Source: Limnomonas spitsbergensis (taxonomy: Eukaryota; Chlorophyta; Chlorophyceae; Chlamydomonadales). From it: a DNA stretch of 64,000 bases. A program made the translations under genes and the position numbers. The notes under the pieces are model-generated. The model saw only the letters and a list, made by a program, of their open reading frames with translations. It did not search any database and had not been told where the DNA came from. Positions 2,368 through 52,211 of this stretch are shown here, one piece after another. The stretch spans positions 6,850,501 through 6,914,500 of the forward strand of contig JAYJMM010000039.1 of assembly GCA_037349105.1 (NCBI GenBank), in the 5' to 3' direction. The number at the start of each line of letters is the position of its first letter. The stretch's first letter is position 1.

Positions 2368-5300
2368 TTAGGATGAAAAGTCATGGGATTTATGTTGCCA
2401 TGACAGCCCAAACACGAGGCTCCTCACCACTTCCCACATGCCACATCTGGTTGCTGATCTTAGACTGGCGGCGTCTCCTCCTTTCCCTTCGCATAAGGCT
2501 GGATGAGTCCACAGTACAGCATGAGCCACGTCCTGGGCCGCACTTGCAAGCCCCATGAATGATTCCTGTCTGAAGAAATCTGGACCTCCATGAACCGAGA
2601 GGGAGGGGCTTGAGCGAGCCTGTCTGGGGCGCACGCTTGAAGCAGCAGGTGGATCACTGGACAGGCCCCGCTTGCCTGCCTTTGACATCTCGTTGGCGGC
2701 TGCAGCGAGGGCCCAGCTCAGTGGCAGGAGTAGGTGTGCTGCAGTGGCCACGGTGTCCCGATGCGTTTCGGGCGATCCCCCACCATACATGCCCTTCCTG
2801 GATGCCGCTCTGGAGCCGGCGTGTGTAGCATCCTTGGACTTGAGGGTGTCAAGCAGCAGCTGCGAGCAGGCCTGGATGACTTCGACGAAGCAGAGGCGGC
2901 TGCCAGCAGGCAACAGCAGTGGCAGGCTTGCCGCCACCAGCTTTACCCTCATCTTTGCGAGCAGCCCGTGCATCGCTGCCTCAGAGGCGACAGCACTCGA
3001 CAGCAAAGCCGCATCGCTCAGAGGCGCTTTTCCTGATGGTGGTGCTGCTGTTACAGGTGCTGCTGCTGGTGTTGCTGGTGCTGAATTTACCAATGCTGCT
3101 GCTGCTGCTGTTCCTGCTGCCACTGACGCTGGTGGATCTGGAGAGGGAGTCCTGAGGCGTATGACGTCGCTGCTGGGGCCGACAGCGGAGCGGGCGGCTG
3201 CAGTGAGGTCTCGCAGCTCCATTCCCAGCCACGGGTGCGCACCGACCACCGCTGTCAGCATTGAGATGGTGTATGCTGGGTTCTCTAGCACTGCTGGGGG
3301 TGTCAAGGCACTGCCTGTGAGCAGGACATGGAGTGTAAATAATCAGTGGGATTCAGCAGTGCATCGAGATCTCAGGTCACTGCATGTTTTGCAACGTGTG
3401 CGTTGCAACGTGAGGCTGCGCTCATTGTTGGATACGTGAATGCCCTGTCTGTCAGCAGAACAGAGGGCGTTGGGAATCAGCAGGATTCAGCATGCTGTAT
3501 CAACGTTTGTGGCTGTTTCATGCCTTGTGCCGCGCACATGGAGATGGTGTATGGCTGTATGCTGCGTTCTCAGGCATTATCGGGGGAGTGAAGGGCCTGT
3601 CTGTCAGAAAGACAGAGAATCCGCAAAACGCATCATGCTGTATCAAGGCAAGTGGTCGTGTCTTGCCTCTTAAGCTGGGCATCTCTGCATTAGGCTGCAC
3701 ACACTGTTCATTCACTTTCTATTTAGGGTGCTTCAGCTACAATTTAGCTACACCGTGGCCTACGGCCGGGGGGGGACCTAGTTCCCCAAGCCCTGCTGCT
3801 TGGACCACCGGATGCAGGCTGGTCAAGGTTTGGTAGACACGAGCCCAGTGGTGCCTGAACAGCGGCCTGTCAACAATATCCTGGCGGTAACTGAAATAAA
3901 GAAATAACCAATCTCTTCATCGTTGCAGTAATACCATGCCAGCTGCAGTGTGGCACGGGCCCTGGCAGATTAAAGCAGAACTCGGATGCAAAAAACAACT
4001 TTTTTGAAGCTGCCGTGGAGCGGCTACCTCAAGAGGCGATTCATATTTACGATCTCATTTTCACGGCACCAGTTATTTTTGTACTGTGGCTTTCAAATTG
4101 TTTAAAAACATAATGACAAGTAGGGAGATCGCGTGGATACTGACCTGTGAGGAGAAAACCTATGATTTGGGAGACCTCCAGCAGCACGTCTGGGCCGTAG
4201 AAGACCTGTTGGCCATGCTTTATCATTTCTGTGATGGTCCACTCCATGTTCTTGAGCAGGAGGGGCGACAGCCGGGCCCTGGCAGCGGTCCCGCACAGCT
4301 GAAATGCCTCTGCAGCTGCTCGTAGGCTGCCACTGCAGCCCTTGGGTTGGTGCTGGACCATCCAAGGTAGCCCGGCTGAAAGCAGGCGAGTTGCAGCTTC
4401 CGCTGTTAGAATGTCCCCTCCTCGTTTGACCAGCTGACGCTCCTGATGCTCATGCTGCTCCTGCAGCCGCTGCCCGGTCTGTGATGGAAAAATTAGTTTG
4501 TTTTTTTTAGTGCGATTCAGCTTTACTTCAGCTACATCATGGACTTCTGCCAAGGGGGCCTGGTGCAGCAAGTCCCGCTGTTATGGCCACCGGCCGTAGG
4601 CCGTAAAAGGTTTGGCTTGATCATCCCTGTGGTGGCTGTCTGGCAGCCCACCAAAGGTGGTCTGAAAGTTAAATAAAGACGCATAGAGATGCCTGCCTCT
4701 GCAACCAGATATTAAATACATTGGGGGAGACAGCACTGGCTCCTCTGAGGCGATTGATCTACAAATGAGCTCTGGCAGGCGCTGCTATGCTGGTCGGTGC
4801 AGGCAATGCCATGCTGGCCGGGTTTTCGGTGCAGGCACTACTATGCTGGTAGGTTCAGGCACTGCTATGCTGGTTGGATGCAGTCATTCCGTGTGCGTGC
4901 CCTGATGGACTGTTAAGTTTATCTCTAGGCTGCCACATACCGGTATTTGAACCATGACATTGCGGAATGCAGGTTGAGGCCAGGGGGGCCCTGGTTGAGG
5001 CTATGATTCCGATGAGCAACAGTAAATCGTGAAATAAATCCCCTCCAATAATATATGCCTTTTCTTCTGAAGCATGTAATGAATGATCTCCCCCCTGCAC
5101 CGGGCCATAACTGCAGGGCGGCTGGGGAAACCAAGGGGAAACAAGTGGTGGGAACCACATTTGTTTACCACTGGGTCAAATGGGACCCAGCCATGATTGG
5201 CCTGCAGCCTAGGGCCCTATTATTGGTAACTAAGCATGTTGCGCCAACGCCCCCCCCCCAGCCGTAGACCAGAATTAAGCTGATAACCTGAATATTACTG

Positions 5301-8061: not shown

Positions 8062-10690
8062 TTAGGTTATGATTCGCCACCATATCTCCACATGCAGGAA
8101 ATATATTAGCCATCTGAAAGACAAGCCGGGTGACAGACAGAAAGACATTCAGGTGCAAAAAAAACCAAAGTGCAGCTACACCCCTCAGGGCCTGTCGTGA
8201 CAAGGTCTGGAACCCACCTGATTTTCTTCTTGGCAATCAGCTCCGTGACAGGCACTTCGTTCATCCTCGAGGCAATGATGAAGTCGTTTGTTGTAAGCCC
8301 GCCTGCGGTGCGGGTACGCAAAGCAAGGCATTCAAGAACATCGCTCGTCTGAGTACCAGGCTGCGTGTGGCCACCAGCATCATTTTTAGTGCACTCAGGC
8401 TGGGTTTCAACTACACCCTGTTCTATGGCCGGGGGAGGAACTTGCAGCAAGGCCTGAACACTTGCCCACCTGGCATGGCTCCCATGAGTCAGTCATCATG
8501 GTTTGGGCCCAATCCACCAGTAATGTCATGCCCGCTGCCCCCAAAAGAGATCTGGTGCATAATAATACATTACTGCATTACGTAATCGCACTCATGACTC
8601 ATCAGCTGTCAGAGTTTATGGCTGCATCTGTACAAATGCAAAGACCGCGGCCCACGTCTGAAGTTTTACTAGAAGCACGTGCTACCGGGGAGCAGAAGGC
8701 TAGGATGGCGGATGGCGCGAGTGCAGCCTAAGCTAGAGTTGTGCTTTTCTTATTCAGCCACATTTCAGGTACACTCGCACCCCAGGCCGGGGGCCCAAGA
8801 TGTGGTCATCCATGCTGCTTAGGCCGCCAGCCATGGTCTGGTCCAGGTTTGGTGCCAATTAGGTCTTTGGAGGCTTGCCAATGGTGGCCTCATAAGCCGA
8901 CAAATAACACTGGCCTGACCCTGCCTAGGCACGACAAGATCTTGGCCACAAAGCAAACACCTCGTGCTGGCGGCTTACCTCGTGACTCGGTGAAAAGCTC
9001 CACAAAGATGTTCTCCCCCTTCACTTCCATGACAGCCGGAGTGTAGTCATCCCCTGCCACGACTGATCCTAGCAGCTTCACAAGCTCTGCCGTCGACGCG
9101 GCGTCCTTGCCCTTCCACTCCTGCGTCAAGCTCTGCCGTGTGGCACTCTCAGCCACGCGCCAGCCCTGGACTTGGTTCATGTTCAGATCCACTTCCTTGT
9201 TTTCTAGGCGAGTTAGCTGCGCAAGCGGCTTGATCTTTTGGGCACCGATGCCCAGGAACCTCTTGGCACTGTCGGGGATCCTGCCATAAGGACAGCCGAA
9301 ACGATTAGTGAGGCAGAAGCAATGGCAATCACTGTTAAAGTGCATCAGCTACAATTCATTTACCTGGCCTACGGGCAACAGGGCTTGGTACAGCAGGCCT
9401 TGTTGCTGGGTTCACCGGCCGTAGGCCAATCATGCTTTGGTACCATTCAGCCCAGTGGTCTCCGCGCATCAGGCCCCTCCTAGTGGTCATGATTGCACTG
9501 TTATAAGCACTGCTAGCCAGCGGTTATGAGGCAGACAAGGTGGCTTGCACATCAGGAAGTGTACAACAGACAAAACACCATGCGACCTCACGCACGAAGA
9601 AGAGCCTTGCCAGCCACAGCCCATCCACTCCCAATCGGGGATTGCATCATGCGTGGTATCCTGAAAAAATCATCAAAATCCATCTTTCTCATAATCCATC
9701 CCCCCATGTCGGGGGATGCTGCATGCATGTCACCGTATCCCTGGACGACACGCACCATGTTGATGTTTCCCAGCAACCCCTTGATCCAGTTCAATCCCAG
9801 ATTTGCGGATGCTTCATACCTGTAACTTGACCTACCCTCACTTCATGATATGGGTCGTGTCCAAGTTTCCCAGAATTCCTCCCCATTTCCCACATGTGGA
9901 GGGTGCTTCATGCATGTGAACATGTCACCCTACCGGGAGGTGTGTCATGAATGCGGCCTCACCCTACCCTCAATTGAAGGCAAGCGCAGTGCTGAACTTT
10001 CCCAGGGCCCCTCTCCCCATGTCAGGGGATGCTTCATGCATGTGACCCAACTAAGCCTGCCCTCCCTTAAAGACCTGCACGGTGTCGAAGATTCCAAAGA
10101 TCCCTGCCCCTGTGTCTGGACATCCTGCTTGCGCTTGATTCTATCCTGCACTTGCTTGATGACCTAGGCTGTGTCAGTCTTCCCCTGGACCCCTACCCCA
10201 ACGTCTTCAGGGATGCTTCATGCATGCAACCCTGCATGCAACTCTCCACTCACTTGATCACATGCGCAGTGTCAAAATTTCCGAGCACTTTGTCGCTGAA
10301 ATTAGACTCGAGCTCTGCAGCAGTTGCATCTCGCGCGCCGAAGTTGTCCCCAAACATGGACTTCTCAGAGGCATTCTGCTTAGGGTCCGCCCAGCCTGCA
10401 TGCACAAATAAAGGTTCAGGACCCAAACCTAGTTCCCCATCAAGGGCGTAAGAAATGCTTCGGCAGCCTCTTATACTGCACTGGGCGCGGCAGCCCTCAC
10501 CGGTGCTGCGGATGATAACGTTGCGTTGCCGCACCTCCGTCAACACTGCCCTCGAGGGCCTTATAGGAGTGTCCTGGGGGAGTTATATTTCAAATTAAAT
10601 TGTCAGCGATGCATTCGGAGTTACAGGAGCACGCCCTAAGAAACACACCCGTGTCAGACGGCTGCCGTGGTAGGTTGCTGACTTCTGCAT
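8062..10690 (-). CDS. RAF2: Rubisco accumulation factor 2-like protein, plastid (PCD-like)
   Basis: Six phase-compatible minus-strand exons: 10690-10625, 10573-10501, 10395-10254, 9280-8979, 8302-8218 and 8113-8062, giving 239 residues. The first about 45 residues (MQKSATYHGSRLTRVCFLGR and on) are basic, hydroxylated and almost free of acidic residues, as in a chloroplast transit peptide. FGARDATAAELESNFSDKVL then matches the conserved N-terminal block of RAF2. The pterin-4a-carbinolamine dehydratase fold follows, with QGWRVAESATRQSLTQEW, then ENIFVELFTES, then GGLTTNDFIIASRMNEV across an exon junction. RAF2 is a plastid chaperone needed for Rubisco accumulation. The catalytic His-His-Pro of true dehydratases is replaced here by DYTP, as expected for a non-enzymatic RAF2. 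The last short exon (acceptor TCTTTCAG at 8114) is the least certain; read-through to a stop at 8106 is the alternative. Confidence 0.82.
8405..8470. mobile_element. Dispersed foldback repeat, copy 3 (degenerate)
   Basis: A degenerate copy with TTTCAACTACACCCTGTTCT, ATGGCCGGGGGAGG and CTTGCAGCAAGGCCTG. It lies upstream of the 8302 exon, inside a RAF2 intron. Confidence 0.4.
8757..8880. mobile_element. Dispersed foldback repeat, copy 4
   Basis: The copy has ACATTTCAGGTACACTCGCA, CCAGGCCGGGGGCCCAAG, CATGCTGCTTAGGCCGCC and TGGTCCAGGTTTGGTGCC, in the same order as the copy at 3.73 kb. It is intronic in the RAF2 gene. Confidence 0.5.
9340..9485. mobile_element. Dispersed foldback repeat, copy 5
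   Basis: This is the clearest copy. It has CATCAGCTACAATTCATTTA, CCTGGCCTACGGGCAACAGG, GGCTTGGTACAGCAGGCC, then CACCGGCCGTAGGCCAATCA and GCTTTGGTACCATTCAGCCC. The arms GGCCTACGG and CCGTAGGCC can pair. It lies just upstream of the 9280 exon in a RAF2 intron. Confidence 0.6.
9700..10250. repeat. Tandem decayed copies of a RAF2 splice-donor region
   Basis: The real minus-strand donor at 10254 reads, on the plus strand, CTCACTTGATCACATGCGCA then GTGTCAAAATTTCC. Degenerate versions recur at about 9839 (CTCACTTCATGATATGGGTC, GTGTCCAAGTTTCC), 9970 (AGTGCTGAACTTTCC), 10065 (GGTGTCGAAGATTCC) and 10150 (TGTGTCAGTCTTCC), and weakly near 9745. The spacing is roughly 85-130 bp. Each is followed by C-rich text and GGATGCTTCATGCATG. 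The intron appears to have grown by repeats of exon end plus donor. Confidence 0.7.
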
Positions 10691-14150: not shown

Positions 14151-14267
14151 AGAGAGAGGAAGGGTTTGAGGGTGCTGAGCTGGAACATAGGGGGGCATCT
14201 TAGCACAATGCACCTGAGCCTTGATCTTCAGAAGATATGGGAAAAGTAGACTTAATCATTAATCATT

Positions 14268-15129
14268 TTGTCTCACACCGGTCATTACGTCTCTGATGTT
14301 GTCCCTGACCTATCTGGTTTCGCATGTGTCTCTTGCAATGCACGGACTTACGATGCACGGTCGGGTGGAGTTGCGGTCCATGCTAGGCAGCCTCTATCGG
14401 TGTCTTTAGTGCAGGATTCCCCTTCATATGGAATGACCTGGGTTACCATTCCTGCCTGCAATCTGTATGTTTGTGCGTGTTACCTGCCTCATGCGAATTC
14501 TTCCTATTTTAAACATGAAAATGGCCGGTTGGATGCTGCGGCCCACTATGATTTTCTTAGACAATCAGTTTCTAAATTTTCTGCGCTGGGGGAGGTTGTG
14601 ATCTCAGGGGATTTGAACTCTAGGACTGCATGCGTGGATGATCGCTGCGACATCATAGACATGCAAGAATGGGAGGGTGTGGGCGCAGCCAATTTGCCAA
14701 TTCCGTGTGACGCCATTAATTTGCATGCGTGTGCGCGCGCTGTCCCGCCTAGACATAATGAGGACGGGGTGGTTAATCCTAATGTGAAAAAAATGATAGA
14801 GATGTGCAAAGATCAAGGTTTGGTTATCCTGAATGGAAGGTTGTCTGGGGATATTGAAGGTACTTTTACCTATTTCCAACATGGCAAGAATGCTGGTGCT
14901 TGCAGTGTCATTGACTATTTCATATCAACCCCGTCCCTTATTTTTGATACGTCAGGGGCCATCAAGCCTGGGTGTGATATGCAGGTATCTCAATGTGCTT
15001 GTACCCCTGCACGTGCTGATGGGGGTAGGTTTGACCATGTTCCTATTTTCCTTACTGTTAGCCGGCCCGCCTTGGAGCCAAGCGCGTTCGCTAGGAGGGA
15101 AAAAGGAACCTTGCAGGGAAACGATGTGA
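14268..15129 (+). pseudogene. LINE endonuclease (EEP/APE) domain
   Basis: The reading frame carries the endonuclease/exonuclease/phosphatase signature order: SGGVAV, then GEVVISGDLNSRTA (the GDLN motif), then SVIDYFI, then GGRFDHVPIFLTV, equivalent to the terminal SDH block. This domain nicks target DNA for target-primed reverse transcription. The N-terminal strand WNIGG lies upstream in another frame, and the linker continues in a different frame after about 15130, so the protein is not intact. Confidence 0.85.
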
Positions 15130-15160
15130 CTATGAAGCAGGCTCGTGACGTAGTTTACAG

Positions 15161-16077
15161 ATGGAACCCGGATACCATAGTAGGGACTTTTACGTTACAA
15201 ATGTATGTACGTCTGCCTCGGTGGCGGAACATTTCGGAGCCATGTATCACCTTTCTGCATCAGTGCATGAAGTCTCCCAAAACTTTGGCCGCGCTATTGA
15301 GTGTGCCCTTATGGATTTACATAGATCGCAGGGTAAAGTTGCTTGCTATCCCAATGAGTCTAAAGTTATCAAGCAGGATAGGCCTTGCAATACTTGGTAT
15401 GATGACCGGTGCAAAGCTGCTAGGAAAACTTGTTTAGTGGCTGCCCAGTTTTGGGGTGCTGGTTCAGGAGAGGTTAAGTTGGCCATTAGGGAATATCGAC
15501 GTATAACTCAGGCTATCAAGCGTGAATGGGAGGGTGTACGAGCAGCGGATCTACTGTCAGATCTTCGGTGCCAGCCTAAGAATTTTTGGTCGGCTTATGG
15601 CAGTAACAGGAAGATCAGCCCTCTCACAGATGTGGGGGATTGGACTGAATACTTTAAAAAGCTGTTTGAACCTTCAGAGCATGTGCCTTGCCACAAAGCT
15701 GGGGATGAGACTATTCAGGCGTGTTTATTTCCTTTTCCTTTAGAATTTCATCTTTCTCAAGCAGAGCACCTAAATTGTGTTTTTACGGAAGCCGAGATTG
15801 TGAAAGCTTTGGAAAAGACTGTGAATGGAAAGTCTGCGGGTGTTGATGGTGTCCCTATGGAGTTTTTGAAACACGCGGTTATTGTGACTCCCAGGGGAGC
15901 TTTTTCTTAAGAGAAGCGGCAGTATGTTTTGGCAAATCAAATTACGTTTTTGTTGAATAGAGTTTGGCAGACGGTTACCCTAAGGAGTGGGGCATCGGAG
16001 CACTCGTTCCGGTACCTAAGCCAAAGGGCAGTCCTGGAATCAAAGACGATTATAGGGGTATTGCCGTTGGAACTGCC
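15161..16077 (+). pseudogene. LINE linker and first part of the RT domain
   Basis: One frame to the TAA at 15910 gives the linker and the pre-RT helix FTEAEIVKALEKTVNGKSAG followed by VDGVPMEFLKHA. After further frame breaks, PKEWGIGALVPVPKPKGSPG and DDYRGIAVG provide RT motifs 0-1. The coding sequence then stops abruptly at the insertion boundary after ...GGAACTGCC, and resumes at 19096. Confidence 0.85.
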
Positions 16078-16218
16078 TGTCGCACCATAAAGCAGTAAAC
16101 GCGCCAATATGGTAAACTCCGTAATGTCCGGTAAAGGCGCCTTAGAGAGGTGTCCTTCTACTCATAAACACGGTACATCACCATACACACAGGCTCCTTG
16201 TACTTCAGACAAGAGCTG

Positions 16219-17781: not shown

Positions 17782-18445
17782 TTTATACGATCCACACGAT
17801 CCTGCAATGTGCTGGCAACACCAGAACAGGATCTGCTAACGCTCAGGCTTCTGCCTCTTGCACCTACTGCAGCCTGGTGAGGGCTTGCCAGTCAGGTCAA
17901 GCCGACAGGTACAGCAAAAAACAGGACAGGTCTGCCTTCCTGATTTTTCTTGCTAATAATCAGAATCTGGCGGAATCCTCCGTCGCCTTAACACTTCCCA
18001 CCTTTCTGGTCTGGGCAGCTGCTAGAAGTCGCACGCCCTGCGTGGATGGAGCTTCTTGCTTGGTGCCCGCTCTGCTCTGCGGTCCTGCGGGGATGCTTTG
18101 GCCCACCAGAAAAAAAATTAACCTTGGATCTTCTATCCACAAGTTCACTTCTGTCAATGATGACAGATTGGATCCACCTGATCACAATCTTCAATCACAC
18201 AGGTACAAATTGCTGGGTGTATAAATCCACAGCAAATTCTTCAAGCCTCTCCTGGACCCAGCACTGTGTTGCCACACACAGTGATTCACAGGATTTAACT
18301 TGGCAATCTCTCTCTGGAGATTACCTCAGCCAAATTGCAGTTCAAGCACCAAATTCCAGGCTGTTTGCTGACAAGCAAAATTCAAATTTTCGAAGCACAA
18401 ACACCTTCTGCAGGAACTGGCAAATCAGGCTGATCAGGCTCAATC

Positions 18446-18899: not shown

Positions 18900-19095
18900 A
18901 CTAGTTTAGGCAATTGCCGGGATACAGGGATCCGGCAGGCCCAATTCAGAGTACGGGAAAGCTAAACCCCTGGCGTAAGCGGGTTTCTAGGTTCCTATTC
19001 AAATAAGGAGGATCCGCAGGGAAGCTGCGAAGTCTCCGCGGTCGCAAACTGCGGCCTCAACGGTTCTGGCACGTATACCGTAATATACCGTGACA

Positions 19096-22602: not shown

Positions 22603-25600
22603 CGTGAAATTCCCTGGGTAGACCGCCCTTGCTACATCAAGGAAGCTCAGGCTGAGCAGGAGGCACTGGAGGGCTCAGTACCTCATCTTCTGCTTGTTGT
22701 TGTGTTGTTGCGACCTCTGCAAAGTAGGCTGCAACATCACCTTGGCTTTACTGGGTACGCGGCTAATTAAGGGCAAAGCTCTTCAAGGGAAACAATGGAA
22801 AGAGGGATATCGATAGGATGCGGTCAAGGTACAACATTTGTTGAATCCATTGGTCTCTGTAGTGTTGCTATGCCCCCATCACTGCATGAAAGCCACCCTC
22901 CCAATGCCTGGGCAAAATCAGATCTCCTGTCTGCTGCCGGTCCTTTCAGGAAATGGGTTCGTATTTTGCATCTGGGTAGTGGCTCCCATGCAACCCCCCC
23001 GACACCGCACATACCTACACGTGCACACAAAAACACAACCCTGTCTGTTTCCCGCCCTTTCAGGGAACGAGGGCGGCTAGTGGATCTGGGCGGTGACTCC
23101 CACGCAGCCCCGGGAGCCAAGCCTGCCAGCAGCCATGCGCCGACAAGCAGCCTGACCGGCACAGGCATACCCTTGGGTGGCGGCAAGCCCAGCAGCATGC
23201 CCCCCGGCAGTGGCAAGCCCAGCGGCATGCCCGTTGTGATGGAGTCCTTCACACTAGGCTGGTTGAACATGGTGGTGCAGAGCATGTGGGGGCCGGTGAT
23301 CGAGCGATGGGTGTCAGGCATTGCGGCTGAGAAGCTACAGGTCATACTGAATGAGGTGCGTGGGTCAGCGTAGAGAGAGAGAAAGGGTATGTTTGCGCAT
23401 ACCTTGCATGTTGGTGCGCTGGTGCAGAGTACGTGGGGGGCGGTGATTGTGCGATGGGTGTCGGGCATCGCAGCTGAGACGCTACAGGTCATATTGAATG
23501 AGGTGTGTGGGCCCTGTGTGGAGAGAGAGAAAGAGTTTGCTTGCGCACGCCTTGCATGAAGAGAGTGAGATAAGGTGTGTGTGGCGAGGATGCGTATGTA
23601 TGCGTGGAGAGAGGGTGGGAGAGGGTATTTGTGTGCGGGCTTTGTGTGAGGAAGGAGGGTATGCATGCTCATGCCCTGAAGGGAGAAATAAGTTAGTCGC
23701 ACGTAGAGAGAAAGAGAGCTCGTATATATATGTGTAGAAAGGGAGATGGAGGTATGTGGGCGCGGGCCTGTCTGAAGAGCTCATATAATTGTAGAGAGAG
23801 AGAGACAGAGAGAGACAGAGAGAGAGAGAGAGGTATGTGTGCGCTGGCCTGCCTGGACAGAACGAGTGGATGTGTAAGTGCGCCCTTAGTGGAGAGCGGG
23901 AGGGTATGTATGTCCGGGCCTGCATGGCGGCTGGTGAGAGATAGAGAGAGTGATTTGCACTGTTCTTACTACTGCCATGCTCCCGATGGGAGGGAGCAGG
24001 GAACGGCAGTTTGATTGCTTCACTTATCCCGCACCTGCAGCTCAGATGCCCAATAGATCAGTCCCCTGTGACATGCTGTGGCAGCGTCATCGTTCTCACT
24101 GCTGTCTCCTGCCTAACCCCAGATCCTGAGTGAGCCCAGGTCCTGCCCGAGCCCAGGTTCTGCCTGAGCCCAGGTCTTGCCTGGGCCCAGGTCCTGCCCG
24201 AGCCCAGGTCCTGTCTGAGCCTAGGTCCTGCCTGAACCCAGGTCCTGCCTGAGCCCAGGTCCTGCCTGAGCCTAGGTCCGGTCTGAGCCCAGATCCTGCC
24301 TGAGCCCAGGTTCTGCCTGAGCCCAGGTCCTGCCTGAGCCCAGGTTCTGCCTGAGCCCAGGTCCTGCCTGAGCCTAGGTCCTGCCTGAGCCCAGGTCCTG
24401 CCTGAGCCCAGGTCCTGCCTGAGCCCAGGTTCTGCCCGAGCCCAGGTTCTGCCTGAGCCCAGGTTCTGCCTGAGCCCAGGTCCTGCCTGAGACCAGGTCC
24501 TGCCTGAGCCCAGGTCCTGCCTGAGCCCAGATCCTGCCTGAGCCCAGGTCCTGCCTGAGCCCAGGTTCTGCCCGAGCCCAGGTCCTGCCTGAGCCCAGAT
24601 CCTGCCTGAGCCCAGGTCCTGCCTGAGCCCAGGTCCTGCCTGAGCCCAGGTCCTGCCTGAGCCCAGGTCCTGCCTGAGCCTAGGTCCTGCCTGAGCCCAG
24701 GTCCTGCCTGAGCCCAGGTCCTGCCTGAGCCTAGGTCCTGCTTGAGCCCAGATCCTGCCTGAGCCCAGGTTCTGCCTGAGCCCAGGTCCTGCCTGAGCCC
24801 AGATCCTGCCTGAGCCCAGGTCCTGCCTGAGCCCAGGTCCTGCCTGAGCCCAGGTCCTGCCTGAGCCCAGATCCTGCCTGAGCCCAGATCCTGCCTGAGC
24901 CCAGGTCCTGCATGAGCCCAGGTTCTGCCTGAGCCCAGGTCCTGCCTGAGCCCAGGTCCTGCCTGAGCCCAGGTCCTGCCTGAGCCTAGGTCCTGCTTGA
25001 GCCCAGATCCTGCCTGAGCCCAGGTTCTGCCTGAGCCCAGGTCCTGCCTGAGCCCAGGTCCTGCCTGAGCCCAGGTCCTGCCTGAGCCCAGATCCTGCCT
25101 GAGCCCAGGTCCTTAACTTGTGGGTGACTGCTAGCCCTGGCAATTCCCTGGCACCAAAATAAGTGATTTATATTTAAGACCAGCCACTCCCCTGTCCCCT
25201 GCCAGCTCCTGAAAATTGTGGGCGACGGCAAGACCCGGTTCCAAAATGTACAATTAATGTTTAAGACCGGCTCTACCCCTTTGTCACCCTCCTCCTACCT
25301 GGAGCTGATAATACCCTTCCCCTGCTACCCTGTACCTGCCACCTCCCAGGTGACCCCTGCAGGTGTTGAACACGTTGGTGATGGCAATATACACCCCAAT
25401 ATACGTGACCAATACTGGTTAACTAGTCTTTTGTATGGACCCTAAACCTCTCTCCCCTGTCTGAGCCCATGTGCAGAGAAATGTGTCACCGTAAGCCCTA
25501 GAAGTGCATTGACGCCAATATATTAGGGTTAAGATTGAAGACCATCCCACCCACTACACTCACCCTCCATCACACAGGTCCTGCAGGAGGTGGGCGACCG

Positions 25601-31600: not shown

Positions 31601-34600
31601 CCCGTTTGTGGAGCTGCGGTTCGGACGCGAGGTGTGTAGGAACACGCAGCACGAGGATATGTATGAGGGGGGGGGGAGGGAGAAGGAGGGGAGAGAAGGG
31701 GGAAGGAGGGAGACGGGGGAGCAAGATGGTGCATGATGGGGAAGGCGGGACATGAGGGGGAAGGACGAGGGGAAATAGGGGGGGGGGGGGATGTCGTATG
31801 AGGAGGGGGAGGGAGGAGGCAGGATGGTGCATGGTGGGGAAGGAGGGGAAAGAGTGGAGGGGGGGGTGTAAGAGGGGACAGGAGGAAGGCTGGACTGAGC
31901 TGCTGCGTACCCTGGCTCTTTGTACCCACCTTTGCAATGTCTGTCAATTTGTTTGATGTACTGTCCGATTTGTTGTTACGCGCTATCTTTCCCCGCTTGT
32001 ATTCACATGCCAATAATCTGCACACCTTTTTTTTTTATCAATTGTGTGTGTTCGAGTCAAACCAAAAGCAAACAAAAGGAAAATATGTTAATTGTCGACT
32101 GATTTTGCGTATGTTTATGTTCATGTGCCTTCCGTATGCCGCGTTAGCTTCCTCTGCCCCAGCCACAGGGCCCGCTCCACCGCACACACGTTGTTTTGCG
32201 CAACAAGCGCATTGTCCCTGCCTCTGCCTCTTCACAGATCCACCGCGCGCCCCTTGCGCACGACAACACATCTGACAGTGCAGATCCACCGTGCAGATCC
32301 ACCGTGCCCTCTTTTTGCACAATAACACATTGTCTCTGCTGGCGCACACATCCACCCACTCCACCGCACACACATTGTCCCTGCCCCTGCCCGTACACAG
32401 GTCAACCCACTCCACCGCACACACATTGTCCCTGCCCCTGCCCGTGCACATGTCAACCCACTCCACCGCACACACATTGTCCCTGCCCCTGCCCGTGCAC
32501 AGGTCAACCCACTCCACCGCACACACATTGTCCCTGCCCCTGCCCGTGCACAGGTCAACCCACTCCACCGCACACACATTGTCCCTGCCCCTGCCCGTAC
32601 ACAGGTCAACCCACTCCACCGCACACACATTGTCCCTGCCCCTGCCCGTGCACATGTCAACCCACTCCACCGCACACACATTGTCCCTGCCCCTGCCCAT
32701 GCACAGGTCAACCCACTCCACCGCACACACATTGTCCCTGCCCCTGCTCCTGCACAGGTCAACCCACTCCACCGCACACACATTGTCCCTGCCCCTGCCC
32801 GTGCACAGGTCAACCCACTCCACCGCACACACATTGTCCCTGCCCCTGCCCGTGCACAGGTCAACCCACTCCACCGCACACACATTGTCCCTGCCCCTGC
32901 CCGTGCACAGGTCAACCCACTCCACCGCACACACATTATCCCTGCCCCTGCCCGTGCACAAGTCCACCCACTCCATTGCACACACATTGTCTCTGCCCCT
33001 GCCCGTGCACAGGTCCACCGCACACCCCTAGTGCACGACAACGCTTCAAGCCCCATCTGGAACTGGCAGTTCCATGTGCGGCTTGCTGCGGATATCCCGG
33101 GCTCCTTCACCGCTGCCGCCACCTCTTCCACGGCGTCGGTGGCAGGGGCAGCAGGGCCTGGTCCCAGTCTGGTCCTCAAGGACGACGTGCTGAGGTTCTC
33201 TGTGCAAAATGCGATGACAATCGGAGAGCCAGAGCTGCTCTGTTCCTGCCAGGTAGGATTAAAAGGTTTCGGAGCTAGAGCTGCTGTGTTCCTGTCAGGT
33301 AGGGTTTATGGATTACGGAGCCCGCTCCGGGAGCCAGATCTGAAATGTTCCTGTCATATAGGGTTTAGGGTTGAAGGAGCCAGAGCTGCTTTGCTCCTAC
33401 AATATAGTGTTGTAGGGTTTAGATTTGAAGGAGCCAGAGCCCAGAGCTGCTTTCCTCCTACCACATAGGTGTAAATGGTGTTAATGGAATTATAGCTGTG
33501 GCCCCCCTCCCTCTCATGAGCAGCGCCACCCCTTCCTCTCCCTTGCAGGTGCGGCTACGGGACATTGGGCTGCACCCAAACGGGGAGGCGGTGCCGCTGA
33601 TGCTCCCACTTAAAGGACCCAACGGACGGCCTCAGGGTAGCTTGCAGGTATGGTGACAGCGGGGGGCGGGGGCTGTGAGAGGGGGGCGGGGTGAGGGAGG
33701 CTGGGAGAGGGGGCAGGGTGAGGAAGGCTGTGTGAGGGGGGCAGGGTGAGGAAGGAGGTCAGCTTGCTAGTGCGGTGATAACAATGGGCACTCTTGTTCA
33801 CACCCTCTAACATCCAGCATCCACACTCTTGTTCACACCGACCAACGTATAGCACCACACTCTTGTTCATACCGTCTAACACATCTAGCATCCACACCCT
33901 TGTTCACACCGTCTTAAGTACAACGCTGTGTGTTTGCATTGCCTCACAATATGTCTTCCTTCTCTTAGAGCCTAAACTCTTGGCTTTAGGCCTTAGAAGC
34001 ATTCCCTAGGAAGGAGAAGCATAAACGCTAGGCTTCAGAAGCATCATTTTGAGGGTTCAGAAGCATCTGCACTATCAAGATCTCTAGTCTTGTATGAATT
34101 TGTCTTGGAACGATGGTTTTGGGTTTAGTATTCAAGTTCCCAACAATTATGTTAAGGGTCTGCAAGCAAAGAGTTTGCTGTGTAGGGTTTAGGTTCCAGA
34201 CGATGATCTATTGGGTTAAGAGCTTCGCAACCAACAGTGGCGGCTACCGTCACACTTTAGCCGCCAGCCTGGTAGAGCCTGCCAATACTGCCTATCATCG
34301 TCTCAGGTACAAGTCAAATGGACGAAGAACGCCCCAAAACCCAAGGTTTTCTCCGACGTTGTTGAGGAGAAGCCAAAGCACGGAGCCCCCGCCGATCACC
34401 CACATGCTCGGAACCATTCGGTTAGTGCCAGCAACAACGTCGGCACCGCCGCTGGCGTGTCGTCGTCCACCGGCACCGGCAGCAGCGCCGCGTCTCATCC
34501 CGCGCATCCGGCGGCTCCCCAGAGGGGCAAGCCCTCTGCCGGCCGAGGTGGCGGTGGTGCAGCCGCCGCCGCCTCGATGAACTCTTCGCCGGCGTCGGTG

Positions 34601-38432: not shown

Positions 38433-40163
38433 AAGGTTAAGGGTTAAGGGGTTAACGACATCATGAAGCATAGGCAGCATGAGTAGGTTGAAAGGTCAAA
38501 AGGCCTCTTGGCGTGGAGAAAGCACATGGAGGGGCGGCGGCCGCGGTTGTTGGGGGGTGCCGGTGCCGGGCAAGTGTTTCTAGGATTGTTTTGGATTTTC
38601 TGGCATGGGCGCCTGCCGCATATCAGTTTGACATGGCATCGCTTGTGCTGCAATGTGTGACGCTTTATTCATGGAACATTTTAACATTCTAGGTATAGTA
38701 CCAAGCGTGTTGCCATCAATAGCACACCTATGCTTGACCACACCTGCGCTGACAGATGCGGCGTCCAACTACTCATGCAGTCAGTCATACCATTGGCTGC
38801 GGCTGTATCTCCATACTTGGTCTGGACTTACTTCGTGACCTGGCGATATATTTTTTGACATAAAAAGGGAGCATGGCATGCTTGCATGGAGTGCATGCAG
38901 GGTGCCTGCTTCCTTGGCTGCTAGCATCATTTTCATGTTGCTTTCGTGGAGGGCCTGCCTGGTGATCTCTAGCCTGTGTTGACATTGAACATACATTGGA
39001 GACCACGGTCCTGGACTACCTAAGGAAACTTTTCGGTCCCATGAGGGGACGCTGTTTTCGGTTGTATGCCTGTACATCTATCTGTGCCGGCATGGGTTTG
39101 CGGAAGCGAGCTCCATGGGCCTTTTCGACGCCCAACGTTATGGAATAAATCTGAGGGAGACTGTACATCTGACGTGGTCTTGCCCTTATGTACTATGGCA
39201 TCCTATCTCTGTGCCTGTTGTGGGCAGTACAATAGGCCATATACCAGTACTATGTCATGCGATCATGCAAGTCCTGGCTGATGCTGTCTAGCTCGTTGTC
39301 CTTATCTGGCTAACAACAAAGAGTACTGATGATGACATGCCGGTAACGAAAAGTTGCCTTCATTGAGTCTGCATAAGTAATTGCAGACATGGGAGTTGCC
39401 TCGATTCGCTCGCATGGTCAGGGCGTTCAAATTTACCCCCTCCTCCATCCCTCGGGCTACAGCGCCCTATATAAGTCCCCCAAGTCGATACTAATGGGCC
39501 GTATCGATTGCATGCCTCATTCCAGCAGTGCACAACCAGTCCCGGAAACAATGCCCCTCACAATCCCACAAACATGCACATATTATTCAAAGCATAAACC
39601 GCAAACGTCCTACATCCAGGGTCCTTTTAGATCCTAGATTTGGGGCCCAAAAGCCCCTCCTCCCCCAACGACCTCCGACTTCGGAAGAAGACTAGTGAAG
39701 AAAACATTCTCTCCCCCAACCCACGGCACCCTCCACAGATCGGGGGGGCATGCAGCTTTATCCCTCTCTCCAGTGTGCAGTAGACGAGCTGCTCAAGACC
39801 CTGCTAAAAAGGCTCAATCGCGCCTTCGGCAGGTCTAAGAGGTGCACCCTCTCTCCAGACTGCAATAAAAGAGCAGCTGTGCCTCCACATCAGGGGCGGC
39901 GGTGCAGCTCTCATCTGGCGCTGCCACTACATCAGTTGCAGCAGGCAGCTCGCGTCTGGCTCTGCATCAACAGTGGAGTGAGGTGGTGCAGCTCTTGTCT
40001 GGCTACGAATCAGCAACAGGTGTGGCGTAGTGGATGTCTTCTGGCTCAGTCTCTCCTGGCTCAGCCTCTATGGCGGATGTGGCATAATAGCTGTTTCCTG
40101 TCTCTGTCCCTACGGCGAATGCGTGGTAGCAGTTTCCTGGCTGAGTCTCTCCTGGATCAGCCT
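38433..40163. other. Convergent intergenic region
   Basis: The plus-strand SMP gene ends at 38432 and the minus-strand paladin gene ends at 40164, so both 3' untranslated regions lie here. No third gene is recognised; the frames present are short. I did not find a convincing polyadenylation motif or RNA gene. Confidence 0.5.
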
Positions 40164-43100
40164 CTACTGCAGCGTCAGGTGGTGCAGCAGGTGCTCCAGC
40201 TCTGGCTGCGTGTGCACCCACTCGTCAAAGGTGCGTGTGAACTGCAGGCCCGGAGAGTCCAAGTAGGTCCTTTATGGAGGCAGGAGGGAGAGGGGGGAGG
40301 GAAGAATTAGGATAATAACTAGAAGGGTGGACTGCAGGCGGAGAGGGTCCAGGTTTAACTTTTTATAGAGTAGGTGTGAACTGCAGGCTGAGAGAGTCCG
40401 AAACATGTGGTAGGAGGGACAAGAGAGAGAGAGACAGGGAGGGAAGGTAGGGTTTAACAAACTAGACCCGGGCGCTCCCCCAACCCCACCCACACACCAG
40501 ACTATCGACTCCGTCAGGTATTTTCTGCATCATGAGGAGAGGGAAGTTGTGGCAGCTTCCTGGGACGGCATCTTTAGGATCTCAGTTCGATTAACGTGGC
40601 CCTAGTATTCCCCCCAACCCGTCACCCCCCCCTCTATCAGCAGCAGATACGCAGGAAGTGTCGCTCGAGGAAGTGCACACCCAGCTGCCCCGGTGGCCAC
40701 CCACTGGGACGACATCTTTGGAATCTAGGCTAAACAAACTGGGCCCCAGGACCTCCCCGCTTCCCCCAATCACCTGTAGCAGATAAGCAGGAAATACCGC
40801 TATAGGCAGTGAATCCTCCAGCTGCCCCGGTTGCAACTCAATGGAGAACCTTCTTTAGTATCTAGGTTAATTTACCCCTGGCCCTGGCTCCCCCCCTGCC
40901 CAACACCCACCTGTAGCAGATAAGCAGGAAGTACCGCTTGAGGTAGTGCACCCCCAGCTGCCTCGCGGCAAACTGCAGCGTGTCAGCGCCCTTGCTGGTG
41001 GCACTGGCGTCATGGTCAGCCTCGCGGCGGGCGGCCTCAGCTGCCTCGGCGGCGGCGCGCTCAGCCGACTTCTTCTCCTCGGCCGCAGAAGGCGATGGGG
41101 CCGTGCCAGAGGCCTCAGCCTCACCCTACAGTGTGAGACAGTGGGGCTCAGAGCAGAGAACATGGCTCAGGGAAGAGACCAGGGCTTGGGGCAAAGACAA
41201 CAGGGCGTTTGGCAGACTAGAGTCACAGAGGGCGGTGGGGCGGTGCCCAAGGCCTCAGCCTCACCCTGTGGAATGAGACAAAAATAAATCAGGGCAGAGA
41301 ATGCGGCTCAAGGAAGAGACCAGTAAGAGGGCAGGGCTTGAGGCAGAGAGACCAGGGCTTAGGGCAGAGATAACGGGGCTTTTAGCAGATAAACGTCGCA
41401 GACGCTGAGGGGGCCATGCCTGAGGCAACAGCCTCTCCCAGCAGGATGAGATAATGGCCAACAGTACTGCACCCAGCAGTGCCGCATTCTACACCAGCTG
41501 TACCGCACCCTGCACCAGCAGTGCCGCAATCTACACCAGCTGTACCGCACCCTGCACAAGCTGCACTGCACTAAAGAACTGGCCCAGTCCGCATGCACGA
41601 CCACCTGCCCACTCTGCTCACCGGTCCAACCGGCAACGAAGCAGCCGGCCCTGCAGACGTCTTCCCGGTCTGGAGGCGGCACTTATGGATGTCAGAGAGC
41701 AAGTTGCCGATCTGGGTGCAGCAAGTGATGGCACTGTCCACGGTACACTTGGCATCGAAGCCTCCGGGGAGCAGCCTGCGGCGCAGCCGGGGGGAGAGGG
41801 AGCGCAGGAGTTGTAGCGTGCGTATACAAATGTGGATGGGAGTGTGGAAGTGTGTGGATAGGTGTGGAGGAGGAGGGACGGGGAGTACTAGGCCCCTGCA
41901 GCTGTCTCTAGTCTGCCCGGGTGAAAGAAGAACATTTCCATTTTATGATTTGAAAAAATAATGATCCTGCCTTCAGATTCCCCCTCTGGATCTCCTGTCC
42001 AGATCTAATCTTGCTTGAGGCCTCCGCCTGGACGCCGATAGGTAGCTGAAGAGTAGCTGGACGGCACGAAACAGAAAACTGCGCACAGCTGCACAAGGGC
42101 ATGTTTCCAGAGTTTACTCCCCGGTCTCCAGGGTTCAGCCTATCCCCCCTCCCCCGCCTCCCTCAAGAACTCTGGATCAAGGGTTCAGCCCATGCACCCT
42201 AAACTCCCCCCCACCTGCACAAGGAAATGATGCCGCAGTACTCCCTGGACTGCAGGGTCCAGCCTAAATCTCCACACCCCTCCTCCTGCAATCCGGATCA
42301 AGGGTTTAGCCCATGCACCCTAAACTCCCCCCCCCCACCTGAAGAAGGACATGTTGCCAGGATATACTCCCCGGACTCCAGGGGTCAGCCTTTCCCCCCA
42401 CCCCACCCCTCCCACAAGATTTCCGGATCAAGGTTTCATCCTAGTACCCTACCCCCCAGCCCCCACCTGCACAACGACATGATTCCGCGGTACTCCCCGG
42501 ACTCCGGATCCAGGCTCTTGGCCGGTGTGCCGCCCCCGCAGCTCACGCCACCCAGCGGTGAGCCTAGAGGGGACAGGCCACTGGGGGCGCTGGATGTGCG
42601 TGTGGGCGGCACGTAGAAGCTGGCCAGAGCCGACGCAACAAACCTGCGGGGAGCGGGAGGGGGCAGATCCATGTGCGTGCCTGTGTGCATGTACATATGT
42701 GCCTGTGCATCATTTGCATGTGCGTATGTACAATGTACATATGTGCCAGTGTGCGGATGTGCGTGCCTGTGTGCATGTACACATGTGATATGTGCATGTT
42801 CATATGTGCGTGTGCATCGAGCCCATGTCCCACACCCACAGCCCCGTGCACTTGCTCCATACTTATCCTACCCACCCAAGTGCTGCATGCATCATGCATA
42901 TGGATGTGTGAGTGAAATAGGCATAATAGGTGCGGAACGCCTTTCCTCGCCAGCCCTGCCTGTCCCATACCTTTCCTACTTCTTCCACGCTCATCCTGCC
43001 GTACCCAAGCATATTCCACACATATCCAACCTGTCCCACCTATCCATACCTATACCTCGCCTATCTGTCACATGGGCTGCTGCCTGTCGCAATCCTGGGC

Positions 43101-46100
43101 AGGATGACCTGGGCCAACTTACTCAACACTTAATCCACACCTTTCACACCGATTCCTCACCTGAATGCTGCGGGTCGCGTTCCTTGACCACCTTACTTTA
43201 CACTTACTCAACACCTTTCGCACCTATTCATCACCTGCTGCTGACAGTCGCGGTCCTAAACCGGACGAGTTGGACGACGCTAACTGAACACCTTTCACAC
43301 CAATTCCACACCAATCTCCATTACCTGGCGCTGCTGCCTGTTGCGGTCCTGGATAGGATGAGGTGGACCACCTTATTGACTGAGCCTGTCATCCTCAGGG
43401 CAACCGCCTGAGAAACAATAGCAGGGGGAAACACAGGGGGGGACATTGGAGAAACTTCAGAACTTGGGGGAAATGTTTTGGAGCGAGACGACGGAAGACC
43501 TTAGTTGCTGCTGAACATGCCAATTGCCACATGATGACACGAGTAAGGTGAAAAATGATGGGCCACACACGATGTACCGCTTTGAACTGCCAATAATCAC
43601 ACATATTTCTCGAGGCACCTCCCATTTCACTGATATACATCCCGCGGAATTCTGTCCACCCAGCGGTACATTTACCCCAATCCAACTAACCGTCCTGCGT
43701 TGCGGTGCAGTACGGTGCGGTACAGTCCCCCCTCCGCCCCCCCGCTCCCTCACTGTTAATCCCGCTCCCCCCCCCATCCCCTCTGCGCGCACCTGCGCCA
43801 GCTCGCGGTGCAGCTGGGCAATGTCGAACGCCTCTGGCGTGCGCTCGCGGGACAGCGGGATGCGGCAGTACGACAGGCTGTAGCCCTCCGCCACCAAGCC
43901 CTCCGCCATCTGGCGGGGCGAGCAGAGCGCCACACCGCTATGGGGGTCCACGGCCTCCCAGAAAGGCGCAACGGCAGCACCTTGGGATATAGGAAGGATA
44001 GGTGTGGGGAGGTGTGGAGATAGGTGTGCGGGTACACCACGGCAGCACCTTGGGATAGGGGGGAGGCTTTAATATAGCCCACATCTTTGTTGTAACAGAC
44101 TCGTTGACGTAGCGCGGGTTCTGGGCCTGGGTCAGTGCCTGGGTGAAGGGGTAGTGACATATTTATCCATTCGTCAGGTTGAGGCCCAAATACTGAGAGG
44201 GCATTTCAGGATTACAAAGTTTAATACCGGCTGAAGGTTCGGGCAGTCGGGAGTCTCATCCAAGGGATCCACTGGGCGGTCACGCCCCCCCCAAGGGTAA
44301 AGCACTGGGCTCCCCGGCGCTGACACCCCCCAGGCGCATGCATTGCCCCCCACCCCCCCTCCGCCTCCTCACCTCCCGGCCCACCCAGGCACAAACTCGC
44401 CGCCCACTATAGACGCATCCCCCCTCCTGCCCTCCCCCCCCCTCCACCTCCTCTCAACCAAGTTCTTATCCACCAGAGCCGCAACATCTTGTCTCCCTTC
44501 ACGCCCACCGTCAAGCCACCCACCCTCTGGCCGAAGAGCTTCATCCCTCCCAAGTGCACGCTCCCCAACAACCAGAAGCAAAATCCCCGCCCACCCAGGC
44601 ACACGCTCTCCGCCCACTAGACGCAACCCCCATCCTGCCCTCCCGGCACCCACCTCCTCTCCCCCGGGTTTCTATCCACTAGAGCGGTCATGTCGTCTCC
44701 CGTCGCACCCCCCTCCAGGCCGCCCTCCTTCTGGCCGAAGAGCTTTACCCACCCAGGCACGCTCCCCTTTCACCCCGACGCAAGCTCCCCGCGCACTAGA
44801 CGCCCCCCCTCCGACCTCCCTCCTCTTACCCGGGTTTCTGTCTACTAGAGCCGTCACGTCGTCTCCCGTCAAGCCGCCCTCCTTCTGGCTGAAGAGTGTG
44901 GCACCTCCAGGCACACCCGTGCCGGGGGGTTTGGCGATGGAGGCGCCGCTGCCAGGCGCGCCGGGCTGCTTGTCAAAGGGGGGGAGCTCCTTTGTGGAGG
45001 AGGGAGGTTTGGGGAGAAGTGTGGGTGGGGGAGGTGTGGTGTGAAGTGTGTGTGTGGTGGGAGAGGTGTGGCAAACAAGTGTGTGGGGTGGGGGAGGTGC
45101 TGCAGTCTCCTTCTTTGCCACCCCCTCTCCCACCTGACACGGCAAGCCCCTGTCTCCCCATCTTCATTGTCACCTTGCGCCACCTTGTCATTCGGTCTCC
45201 CCTCCTCCCTCACTCCCATTCTCCCCCCTCGTACAGTAGGATCCTCTTCCTCCTCATGGTAACCTTGCGCCACATTGCCATTCAGTTTCCTGCCGTCTCT
45301 CCCTGCCCCACCCCCACCTGGCGGGACAAGACCTCTCCCCCCCTCCCCCCCATTCAGTTTCCTGCCGTCTCTCCCTGCCCCACCCCCACCTGGCGGGACA
45401 AGACCTCTCCCCCCCTCCCCCCCATTTTTCACACATTGTGCAGTTAGATCTCTTTATTCCCCCTCTCCCCCCTCCTTGTCCCACATGTTGCAACAGAATC
45501 CTGCCCCCCCCCCACCTCATGGTACCTAGCCCCACATTGCCATTCAGTCTCCCTGCCTTCTCTTCCTGTCCCTAACCCTCCTGGTGGAAGGAGTGGAACA
45601 AGACCTCACCTCCCTCCCCCCCCCCCCCCCTTTCTCCCAGGCTGTGAAGCATTATCTCTTCATCCCTCCTCTCCCCCCTAGCTGTCTATCCCCCCTCTCC
45701 CCCCTTGTCCCACCTGATGCAACAGGATCCTGCCTCCCCAGCTGCCAACCTCGTCCTGAACATCCTCCTTGAGCAGCAGCTCCAACTCCTCCAGCTGCAA
45801 GCAGAGCAAGCAGAGTAAGCAGCAGGCAACAAGATAAATACAAACACAATGTGCATCAAAATCAAGTTACTGTCAGTCGGAGCTAACAGCAGCTCCAACT
45901 CTTCCAGCTGCAAGCAGAGCAAGCAGCAGGCAGCCAGGCACCATGCTAAAACACGCAATGTGCACCAAATTCAAATAGCTGCAAGCTGCAGCTAACAGCA
46001 GCTCCAACTCCTCCAGATGCAAGCAGAGCAAGCAGCAGGCACCGAGTTCAAAATGAAACGGGCATCGCATTTCAGCAGCTGTAAGCAGAACACACATCAG

Positions 46101-49100: not shown

Positions 49101-52100
49101 GAGGGCCAGTATGAGGGGCTGATGTGGATGAGGGCTGGCTGCACACCTGTGTAAGGGGCGTGTGTGGGGGGGGGGCTGAGGGTTTAGGGGTGAGGGGGCC
49201 GGGGTGATGGTTAAGGGGTAGGGTGGCTGGGATGCGAGGGGGCCGGGTGAGAGGGTTAGAATGAGAGGGCTGATATGGAGAAATTGTGGAGAAAACCCTC
49301 CCCTCTCCCCTGACCCCTCTCCCTCCTCTTGCCTGCGGGTGGACGTAGGACTTGAGGATGGTCCTGCGGGTGATGGTGCGTCCGCGCCTCTTGCTCAGCA
49401 CGCGGCCCTGCTCCTCCAGATCCACTGCTCCCTCAGCAGCCTGCATGGGAGGAGGCGGGGGCAGGGTGGGATGGGGGCGGGGGCGGGACGGCAGGCATAT
49501 TGAGGCTTGGGAGAGAGAGCTTGCCCTTCTCCTCGAGGTCCACTGCGATCTCAGCGTCCCTAGGAAGGAATTGTCACCTGCTGATGTGAGCAAACTGCCA
49601 GCAGCCGGGCCATGGGTAGGGGCGCCAGGGCAGCTGCTGTATCACCCAATACAGCACCCTTGTCACTGATAGAAGGAACCGCCTAAACCCTAAAACCCAG
49701 TAGTTGTCGTACCTGCTGGGGTGTGTACACTGCCAGCAGTCGGGCCATGGGCAGGGGTGCCAGGGCAGCTGCAGGGTTCTGTTGGATGGCTTCTATGGCG
49801 GCCTTGAGGTCCGGGCGGCTCTCCATCCAGCTGCTGAAGGGCTCTGAGAGGACAGGGGATCGAGAGGGGTGAGGGAATGGCTCTGAGACTGGGAAAGGGG
49901 ATCAAGAGGGGTGAGGCAGGCAAACAATGCCCTTCACGTATGGCAGCAATTCACTGCTCTCTGGTCTGGTAATGTGGGGAGAAAGACCAGCCTGTATATA
50001 AACATATTTAAGAGATAAACGCCTCCGCTGTGATAAGTGCAGCCCTGTGCCTCTCACAGCTTTCTGGTCCAATGACGTCCAGGTGAAAGCCCAACGCACT
50101 CGAAAAAACAGGGAGGGTAGAGAGCCCGACCCACTTGAGAAAATCACATACAGCAAAGAATTAACCCCTCTCTACCTCTGCTCTCAACCGTGCAACTCTG
50201 TGCCCCTCACAATTTTTGGGTCCAATATGCTCCGGTTGAGAGCCTAACCCACGTGAACAAGGGCCCCCCTGCTGTTTAAACCTAAGGCACCGCATACATA
50301 TCTGCTCCAATGTGCTGAAGGCAACAGCCAAACCCATTTCAAACACGCACAACAAATATAATTTAGGATGAACACAGTGTCCTTCTGTTAGCTGGGCAGG
50401 AGCCCTGTGGCACACAAGGCTTGCTGGTCAGATGTGCCGCAAGCAAAAGTCCCTCCCTCTCAAATATAATTCAGGATGCAACACGCCTTCCCTCTATCAG
50501 CTGTGCAAGAGCTCTGTGGCACACAAGCATTTCGGGTCCGATATGCCGCAAGGCTTTCTGGTCGGATGTGCTGCCGGGGTCAGGGAAGGGGCCTCCTTGA
50601 GAGGAGCAGTGACAGCCAGCAGGGGCGCTGATGAATAGTGTGGGTGTGGGGCTTTCAGGTCGGATGTGCCGCAAGCAAAAGTCCCTCCCTTTCAAAATAT
50701 GAGGACTGAGGATCTGATGACCCTGTGAACAAAAGGTATTGTGCAATGAAGCCTGCACTGCTCACGGCTCTTTCGTCCTACATGTTCCAGGTAAAAGCTG
50801 GAAACAGTTCTACAAAGTATTTATAATCCTAACTGTACACAACAAATGTCTCTTCATACTCTAAGTACCCGAACATCAAAATGTCTCGTGCTCAACCCTT
50901 AACAACAAAGCCACCACGCTGGAAGGGCTTGCAAACGAAAGATCAGTGCCTTCACACTCAAAGGGTTTGCAAACAAAAAAATCAGTGCCTTACCGCTTGG
51001 GAGCTTGCAAAGAAAGACCCTGTGTGCCACTCACGGGTCTCAGGTCCAATGTGTTCCAGGTAGAAAGCAAACGCGATCAGGATGCAGTACCGCTCCAGGT
51101 ACGCGCTGCCTTTCTTGAATGCAGCAGTGCGCTGCTGCAGCTCGGGTCGCATGAACTTGTAGCTGTTGCGCGGCTTGCGGTACCTGCAGCACCACGGGGT
51201 GAGGATGCAGGTGTTAAGGAGGGGGTATGGATTGTCTGTTTTCCGATCTCAGGTTGCATGAACTTGTAGCTGTTACGCGGCTTGCGGTACCTGAAGCACC
51301 ACGGGGGGGGGGCACAGGTGTATGGAAGGGCTAGTTTCTACGGTCTGGGTCACCTCAGGTCACAGGCGCCTTCCCCTCCCCTTTCCCCTCCCCTCCCCTC
51401 CCTGACCCCTCCCCTCCCTGACCCCTCCCCTCCCTGACCCCCCCCCCCTGCCTCCCCTTTCCCTTCCCCCCCTGACGCCCCCTCGTCCTCTCCCCTCCCC
51501 CTGTTGTTTCTCACTTCATGATCTCCACGCGCAGGTTAATGAGGTCACTGGCTGCATCCGCCATCTTGTCCACCACGGCCTTGCTGCGCTCCCCCTCCTC
51601 CAGCAAGCGAACCTAAGAGAAAGGAAATCAACAGATAGGCACATCTGAACAAGAATGGGCATCATGTTACACTTCATCATTTGGCATGTCAGGATAGGCC
51701 TTGAAGGTCGCTGCCCTCCCCCTCCTCCAACTGGACCACCTATCAGGACACATGGTTGGACGCATGACTCTTGCAGGGGCACATCAACATCGATAAGTAA
51801 ATGGGATTGCATGGACGGGCATGTTCGAATTGGCATGAAAGGATGGACATGCACACTATTGAGCGCTTGAGGTACGAATCCTAGGCGCGCATCAGGCACA
51901 GGTTGTGAACTTGGCCAGGGCCACGCGCCCAAGAGCAACTGCACGTGCTTCCATATGAAATATATCCATCCTTGCACTGGATCCAGATGGTCTGGAACCA
52001 GATCTAAATCCATCAATGCCGTGGATCTGGATCTAATGAATCCATCCATGTGCCAAGCTTCCGGGTCGAATCCATCCATGCCCTAGATCCAAACCTAGAT

Positions 52101-52211: not shown

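Follow-up and report, generated by a model that had tools for sequence, protein, structure and literature searches.

Local tandem copies of splice junctions in introns of the snow alga Limnomonas spitsbergensis

The introns of the Arctic snow alga Limnomonas spitsbergensis have a mean length of 788 bp in the merged annotation, as given in the available part of the genome description (PMC11228838). That description also reports IsoSeq reads and groups the alga in one clade with Chlamydomonas ICE-L, UWO241 and C. eustigma. In a 64-kb stretch of its DNA, the whole of which is here called the window, several exon-intron junctions are repeated within the adjoining introns, and a sequence-only reading of that stretch attributed the repeats to intron growth by duplication anchored at exon edges. 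The question is thus whether splice junctions are singled out for copying or are copied along with everything else. We favour the second answer, to which we assign a probability of about 0.8: these repeats, which resemble the 'mirages' of amphioxus, are the remains of ordinary, largely splice-blind local tandem duplication.

Junction copies in the window

Direct alignment revealed junction copies at each of six junctions, which lie at three loci and, as had been claimed, on both strands (Table 1). At five of these the exonic 24-mer has a match in the next 500 bases that was reached by none of 500 shuffles of those bases. The 43980 acceptor is the weakest of the six; its exonic 24-mer alone finds a match of 14/24, equalled by 181 of 500 shuffles and hence not above chance, and the case for it rests on the bases that match across the junction. 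At the plus-strand donor 33252 the exon ends in CCTGCCAG, followed by the donor GTAGGA, and the intron holds four degraded copies comprising exon end and intron start.

The minus-strand gene D is termed paladin-like because other stretches of that strand match PTPlike_phytase weakly, at E 6.8e-5 and 2.7e-4, which does not reach the curated cut-off. The gene finder predicted too many genes in the window and was used for leads only, and a PDB search with one open reading frame from the window returned no match. No second copy of gene C was present among the matches listed in a genome search with 32200-41000. Directly upstream of the exon that ends at 33252 is an array of 13 copies of a 51-bp unit (32354-33019); the unit contains CACAGGT, and the array may therefore be a many-copy acceptor series.

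Table 1. Working exon ends and junction copies in the 64-kb window. Matches are to the working junction; offsets are in bp.
Feature	Position	Strand	Basis
Working exon end, gene C, donor GTAGGA	33229..33252	+	alignment and shuffles
33252 donor-junction copy 1, GT intact	33269..33318	+	38/50, offset 46
33252 donor-junction copy 2, GT lost	33328..33377	+	33/50, offset 105
33252 donor-junction copy 3, GT lost	33374..33423	+	34/50, offset 151
33252 donor-junction copy 4, GT lost	33435..33484	+	31/50, offset 212
Working exon end, gene D (paladin-like), donor GTAAGA	44830..44861	-	alignment and shuffles
44830 donor-junction copy 1, GT lost	44650..44695	-	38/46, offset 166
44830 donor-junction copy 2, GT lost	44444..44489	-	31/46, offset 372
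49713 donor-junction copy (single), gene D, GT intact	49576..49627	-	44/52, offset 135
51183 acceptor-junction copy (single), gene D, AG intact	51261..51310	-	46/50, offset 107
43980 acceptor-junction short copy (single), gene D, AG intact, weak	44037..44060	-	21/24 across junction, offset 68
23340 donor-junction copy (single), GT intact	23458..23507	+	44/50, offset 147

Prevalence in three gene families

Outside the window, chaperonin (Cpn60/CCT), kinesin and dynein heavy chain genes were sampled from the assembly (260,226,709 bases in 124 contigs). Exons were found by Pfam search and introns were placed by spliced alignment, to PDB templates at seven chaperonin loci and to the loci's own matched pieces at the rest. 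Working junctions in these models were placed by protein continuity only, from which we infer that the exon-proximal site is the one chosen in splicing. The sample comprised 164 introns and 328 junctions at 51 loci: 70 introns from 12 chaperonin loci, 42 from 18 loci of a first kinesin set, 17 from 13 loci of a further kinesin set and 35 from eight dynein loci (8 of 17 regions). Four of 16 chaperonin loci (L006, L017, L018 and L019), whose models were unreliable or missing, were left out, and at L007, L010 and L011 only the first intron was kept; in the chaperonin set, bridging exons shorter than 20 nt were removed by hand together with the adjoining introns. Introns above 3500 nt and one doubtful GC intron in L027 were excluded, and 2/20 and 1/14 kinesin loci (L037, L038 and L056) had no usable intron.

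Each exon-edge 24-mer was compared with the adjacent intron and with 100 dinucleotide shuffles of that intron. A same-strand copy that beat all 100 shuffles was present at 65 of the 328 exon edges, where about three would be expected by chance; the loci include paralogs and so the junctions are not fully independent. Copies were found in every set (chaperonin 20/140, first kinesin 24/84, further kinesin 3/34 and dynein 18/70) and beside both kinds of splice site, at 41/164 acceptors and 24/164 donors. They are direct repeats, matches of at least 17/24 numbering 63 on the same strand and two on the opposite strand across the 328 junctions. The phenomenon is genome-wide, affecting around one-fifth of the sampled junctions. 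Thus, the claims that introns carry copies of their own junctions, and that 5' and 3' junctions are both affected, hold well beyond the genes in which they were made.

Spacing, rate and age of the duplications

The copies lie close to the junctions that they resemble. In 22 chaperonin alignments the offset was 97-142 bp in 14, the gap between the two copies was at most 21 bp in nine and at most 57 bp in 19, and the exonic part was always 77 nt or less, with the best alignment wholly intronic in five. A 38-nt test, applied to introns of at least 80 nt in two sets, chaperonin and first kinesin, identified copies at 41 junctions, the nearest at a median of 121 bp and, at 33 of the 41, at 57-196 bp, close to the 60-190 bp originally suggested. 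Series contain between one and 19 copies, the L009 satellite set aside; the copies are tandem, as in the sequence-only reading, which gave 1-8. The decay with distance described in that reading also stands overall, as the nearest copy is more similar to the working junction than the farthest in 16 of 21 series, less similar in four and equal in one; in its example at 33252, similarity falls overall and not step by step. The seven copies at the L035 donor match 50, 47, 46, 45, 45, 42 and 30 of 50 bases and the five at the L032 acceptor 44, 39, 33, 30 and 30 of 50, while 18 of the 19 copies at the L030 acceptor, which are nearly identical to one another, match the working junction at 40 or 41 of 50. 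The 2520-nt intron of L009 holds a satellite with a 41-bp unit similar to the donor junction; 56 copies were scored, and the two most exon-like are at its far end.

It might be supposed that such series arise because duplication is directed to splice junctions, for instance where nascent splice sites are nicked or form R-loops, so that introns grow from their edges. The comparison proposed by the sequence-only reading, that of duplication rates at exon edges and in mid-intron, was made, one-sided, in the 137 introns that reach 200 nt; the satellite intron of L009 and 24-mers of low complexity were excluded. The pooled edge to mid-intron ratio was 1.17 (CI 0.87-1.56), and junctions are therefore copied at approximately the mid-intron rate. 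Donor edges had copies at a frequency of 0.144 against 0.171 in mid-intron (ratio 0.84, 0.54-1.20), and acceptor edges at 0.248 against 0.164 (1.51, 1.07-2.07), a mild excess. The sets disagree, with ratios of 1.62, 1.20, 0.26 and 1.31, of which 0.26 comes from the further kinesin set with its 15 introns, and simulated splice-blind duplication, in which the exon copy was more or less conserved, yielded 0.88-1.30, a range that covers the pooled value. In the chaperonin set (54 introns of 200 nt or longer), a copy was present for 21% of mid-intron windows, for 12% of the windows across a donor and for 20.5% of those across an acceptor.

The points in favour of direction to junctions are the acceptor excess and the arrays detected by TRF (periods below 30 left out). 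Across the four sets 27 of 80 arrays span a junction, 1.50-fold over the 18.0 expected from the placement model (P=0.014); the figures in two of the sets were 17/43 and 9.0. Splice-blind simulation, however, itself produced a 1.14-1.17-fold excess, and with a bias of 1.15-fold allowed for, P rose to 0.07. An excess specific to acceptors was suggested by the chaperonin set (acceptor/mid-intron 2.67) and was not repeated in the kinesin sets (1.24, 0.59-2.30, and 0.44, 0-1.10); the dynein ratio was 1.63 (0.79-3.17). Anchoring at exon edges is thus not clearly supported, although the acceptor excess and the TRF arrays leave room for a mild effect, and of the intron growth originally proposed it is the enlargement of introns by local tandem duplication that is supported. 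We regard direction to junctions as unlikely. The same low estimate applies to a more specific version, in which duplication would be mildly directed to 3' splice junctions, transcription or splicing would seed intron growth, and the spliceosome would use the exon-proximal site against eight copies at the L026 donor or 19 at the L030 acceptor.

Copying of this type also occurs outside the introns tested. Direct duplicates no more than 400 bp apart were present in 18.3% of intron windows and 6.1% of exon windows, inverted duplicates in 1.1% of intron windows. Seven unannotated stretches of the 64-kb window, lying outside the named genes and a retroelement, were also scored. In four of these (21-24 kb, which holds the 23340 donor, 26-29, 29.6-32.3 and 41.6-43.4 kb) duplicates made up 13-30%, and in the other three 8% (10.5-14 kb), 0% (0.8-2.4 kb) and 0% (6-8.1 kb), indicating that the process extends beyond the tested introns in a patchy manner. 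The retroelement (14200-21000), which encodes a reverse transcriptase (RVT_1, E 1.8e-22), is nearly devoid of local duplicates (2/1097 windows, 0.2%). Other features of the window are a 49-bp satellite of approximately 237 copies at 96%, which lies at 52404-63999, runs to the end of the window and contains long plus-strand open frames of up to 3532 codons; a 13-bp unit repeated 30.6 times with 100% matches (29171-29568), and therefore probably expanded very recently; and a weak match to pterin-4a-carbinolamine dehydratase on the minus strand (8890-9348, E 1.2e-4, below the cut-off).

Paralogs provide a view of when the copies arose. Two kinesin genes about 15 kb apart, L026 and L027, have larger aligned blocks that are 82-94% identical, and one 85-bp block at 74%. 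In the L026 intron the donor junction occurs nine times (the working one and eight more) with a period of 89 bp and 96-99% identity, whereas L027 has the same junction once and no internal repeat at E 1e-8. Copy number therefore differs between the paralogs, nine against one, in the single haplotype represented. In the chaperonin pair L004/L005 the exonic parts of some junction copies agree in length (63/63 and 72/73 nt); these copies are probably common to both genes, and others are not. Taken together, the two pairs indicate that duplications are both old and recent, the L026 array being at least one recent case. More generally, the chaperonin genes form diverged pairs whose members are on separate contigs (L004/L005, L006/L007, L010/L011 and L017/L018), a hint of an ancient large-scale duplication.

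Origin and significance of the copies

Splice-blind tandem duplication would account for these features as follows. Units, mostly of about 100-140 bp, would duplicate beside themselves largely regardless of splice sites, through a DNA-level cause such as slippage, unequal exchange or microhomology repair. Where the unit lies across a donor, the end of the exon and its GT would remain on the exon and the extra copy would land in the intron; where it straddles an acceptor, the last copy would remain joined to the exon. The mRNA would be unchanged while the exon-proximal site is used, and duplications at junctions, being presumably neutral, can thus survive where many within exons would not. Arrays would arise from repeated events. 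In an array that grows one unit at a time, the k-th unit shares with the end unit an ancestor that can never be younger for larger k, so that similarity would fall with distance; the end position is occupied by the working junction, and the decay therefore needs no mechanism aimed at exons. Consistent with this, when series were simulated such that any unit may duplicate and the end unit is conserved, the nearest copy was the more similar in 1359 of 2000 series, the less similar in 419 and equal in 222.

The copies might alternatively be functional, acting as alternative or recursive splice sites under selection. They do create decoy sites, as the sequence-only reading had noted: in two of the four sets, with 56 L009 satellite copies left out, the splice dinucleotide is that of the working site in 77 of 100 copies, more than the 65.9 expected from flank identity, and among nearest copies in 32 of 41 against 26.5 expected. 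Function would, however, sit poorly with the decay of the copies, with offsets that show no frame preference (multiples of three at 13 of the 41 junctions) and with the window itself, where only five of the ten copies keep the dinucleotide, all five losses of GT being at the 33252 and 44830 donors; we consider it very improbable. Selection against decoy sites, for its part, is not supported.

Introners carry splice signals and may end in direct repeats, and they are dispersed between genes. The repeated splice sites might also be produced by introner-like mobile elements or by intron gain, and a G-rich repeat in a gene C intron (33659-33760) has relatives on other contigs (C38, C41, C101 and C103). 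The junction copies differ in being local and gene-specific: each is the gene's own junction, adjoins it, and belongs to a unit of one of many lengths. Moreover, the copies at 33225-33484 were touched, the self-match aside, by none of the 31 matches listed in the genome search with 32200-41000, in which 40 of 97 candidates were scored and simple repeats were skipped. Either origin is highly doubtful. That long reads were collapsed or stuttered in assembly is scarcely credible, since divergence from the working junction is 10-35% in many copies, which stuttering would not generate, and the assembly is, from the accessible text of its description, of PacBio long reads with Illumina polishing (PMC11228838), although the copies in L026 and L030 are nearly identical and their number could be misassembled.

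The view in the sequence-only reading that no described family of elements behaves in this way is not supported. Amphioxus genes contain repeats of this structure known as mirages, for which the original paper is said to be Canestro 2002. As set out in the available portions of two reports (PMC3087553, PMC3902484), mirages are minisatellite-like tandem duplications across the exon-intron boundary, at 5' and 3' junctions, in Adh3, the globins BflGb6 and BflGb9, TnC and PGBD5; their units measure about 10 to 160 bp, AG or GT is retained in many of the copies though not in every one, and splicing was regular by RT-PCR. The alga and amphioxus thus have in common a tandem unit that spans the boundary at either end of the intron, with many copies keeping GT or AG. 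In amphioxus, however, mirages were described gene by gene with RT-PCR, whereas in this green alga they were counted in DNA, at 65 of 328 junctions. Duplication across a junction has also been linked to the birth of introns. Rogers 1989, as cited in the part of PMC3087553 available, proposed that a tandem duplication crossing an intron-exon boundary yields a new intron, and in potato, in the portion of PMC4974935 available, a junction-crossing duplication created one; the event proposed by Rogers is alike, the difference being that there a new intron results and here existing introns lengthen. Our search of the open-licence literature, including the accessible text of PMC11228838, yielded no description of duplicated junctions from any alga. 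The kind of repeat is therefore already known, and its scale and host are new as far as that search reached.

This study extends a structure known from a few amphioxus genes to about one-fifth of the sampled junctions of an alga, which suggests that junction echoes follow wherever local tandem duplication is rampant. The arrays constitute natural competition experiments on splice-site choice among look-alikes, with nine near-identical donors in L026 and 19 acceptor copies in L030, and through them one way in which introns lengthen can be dated, one copy at a time.
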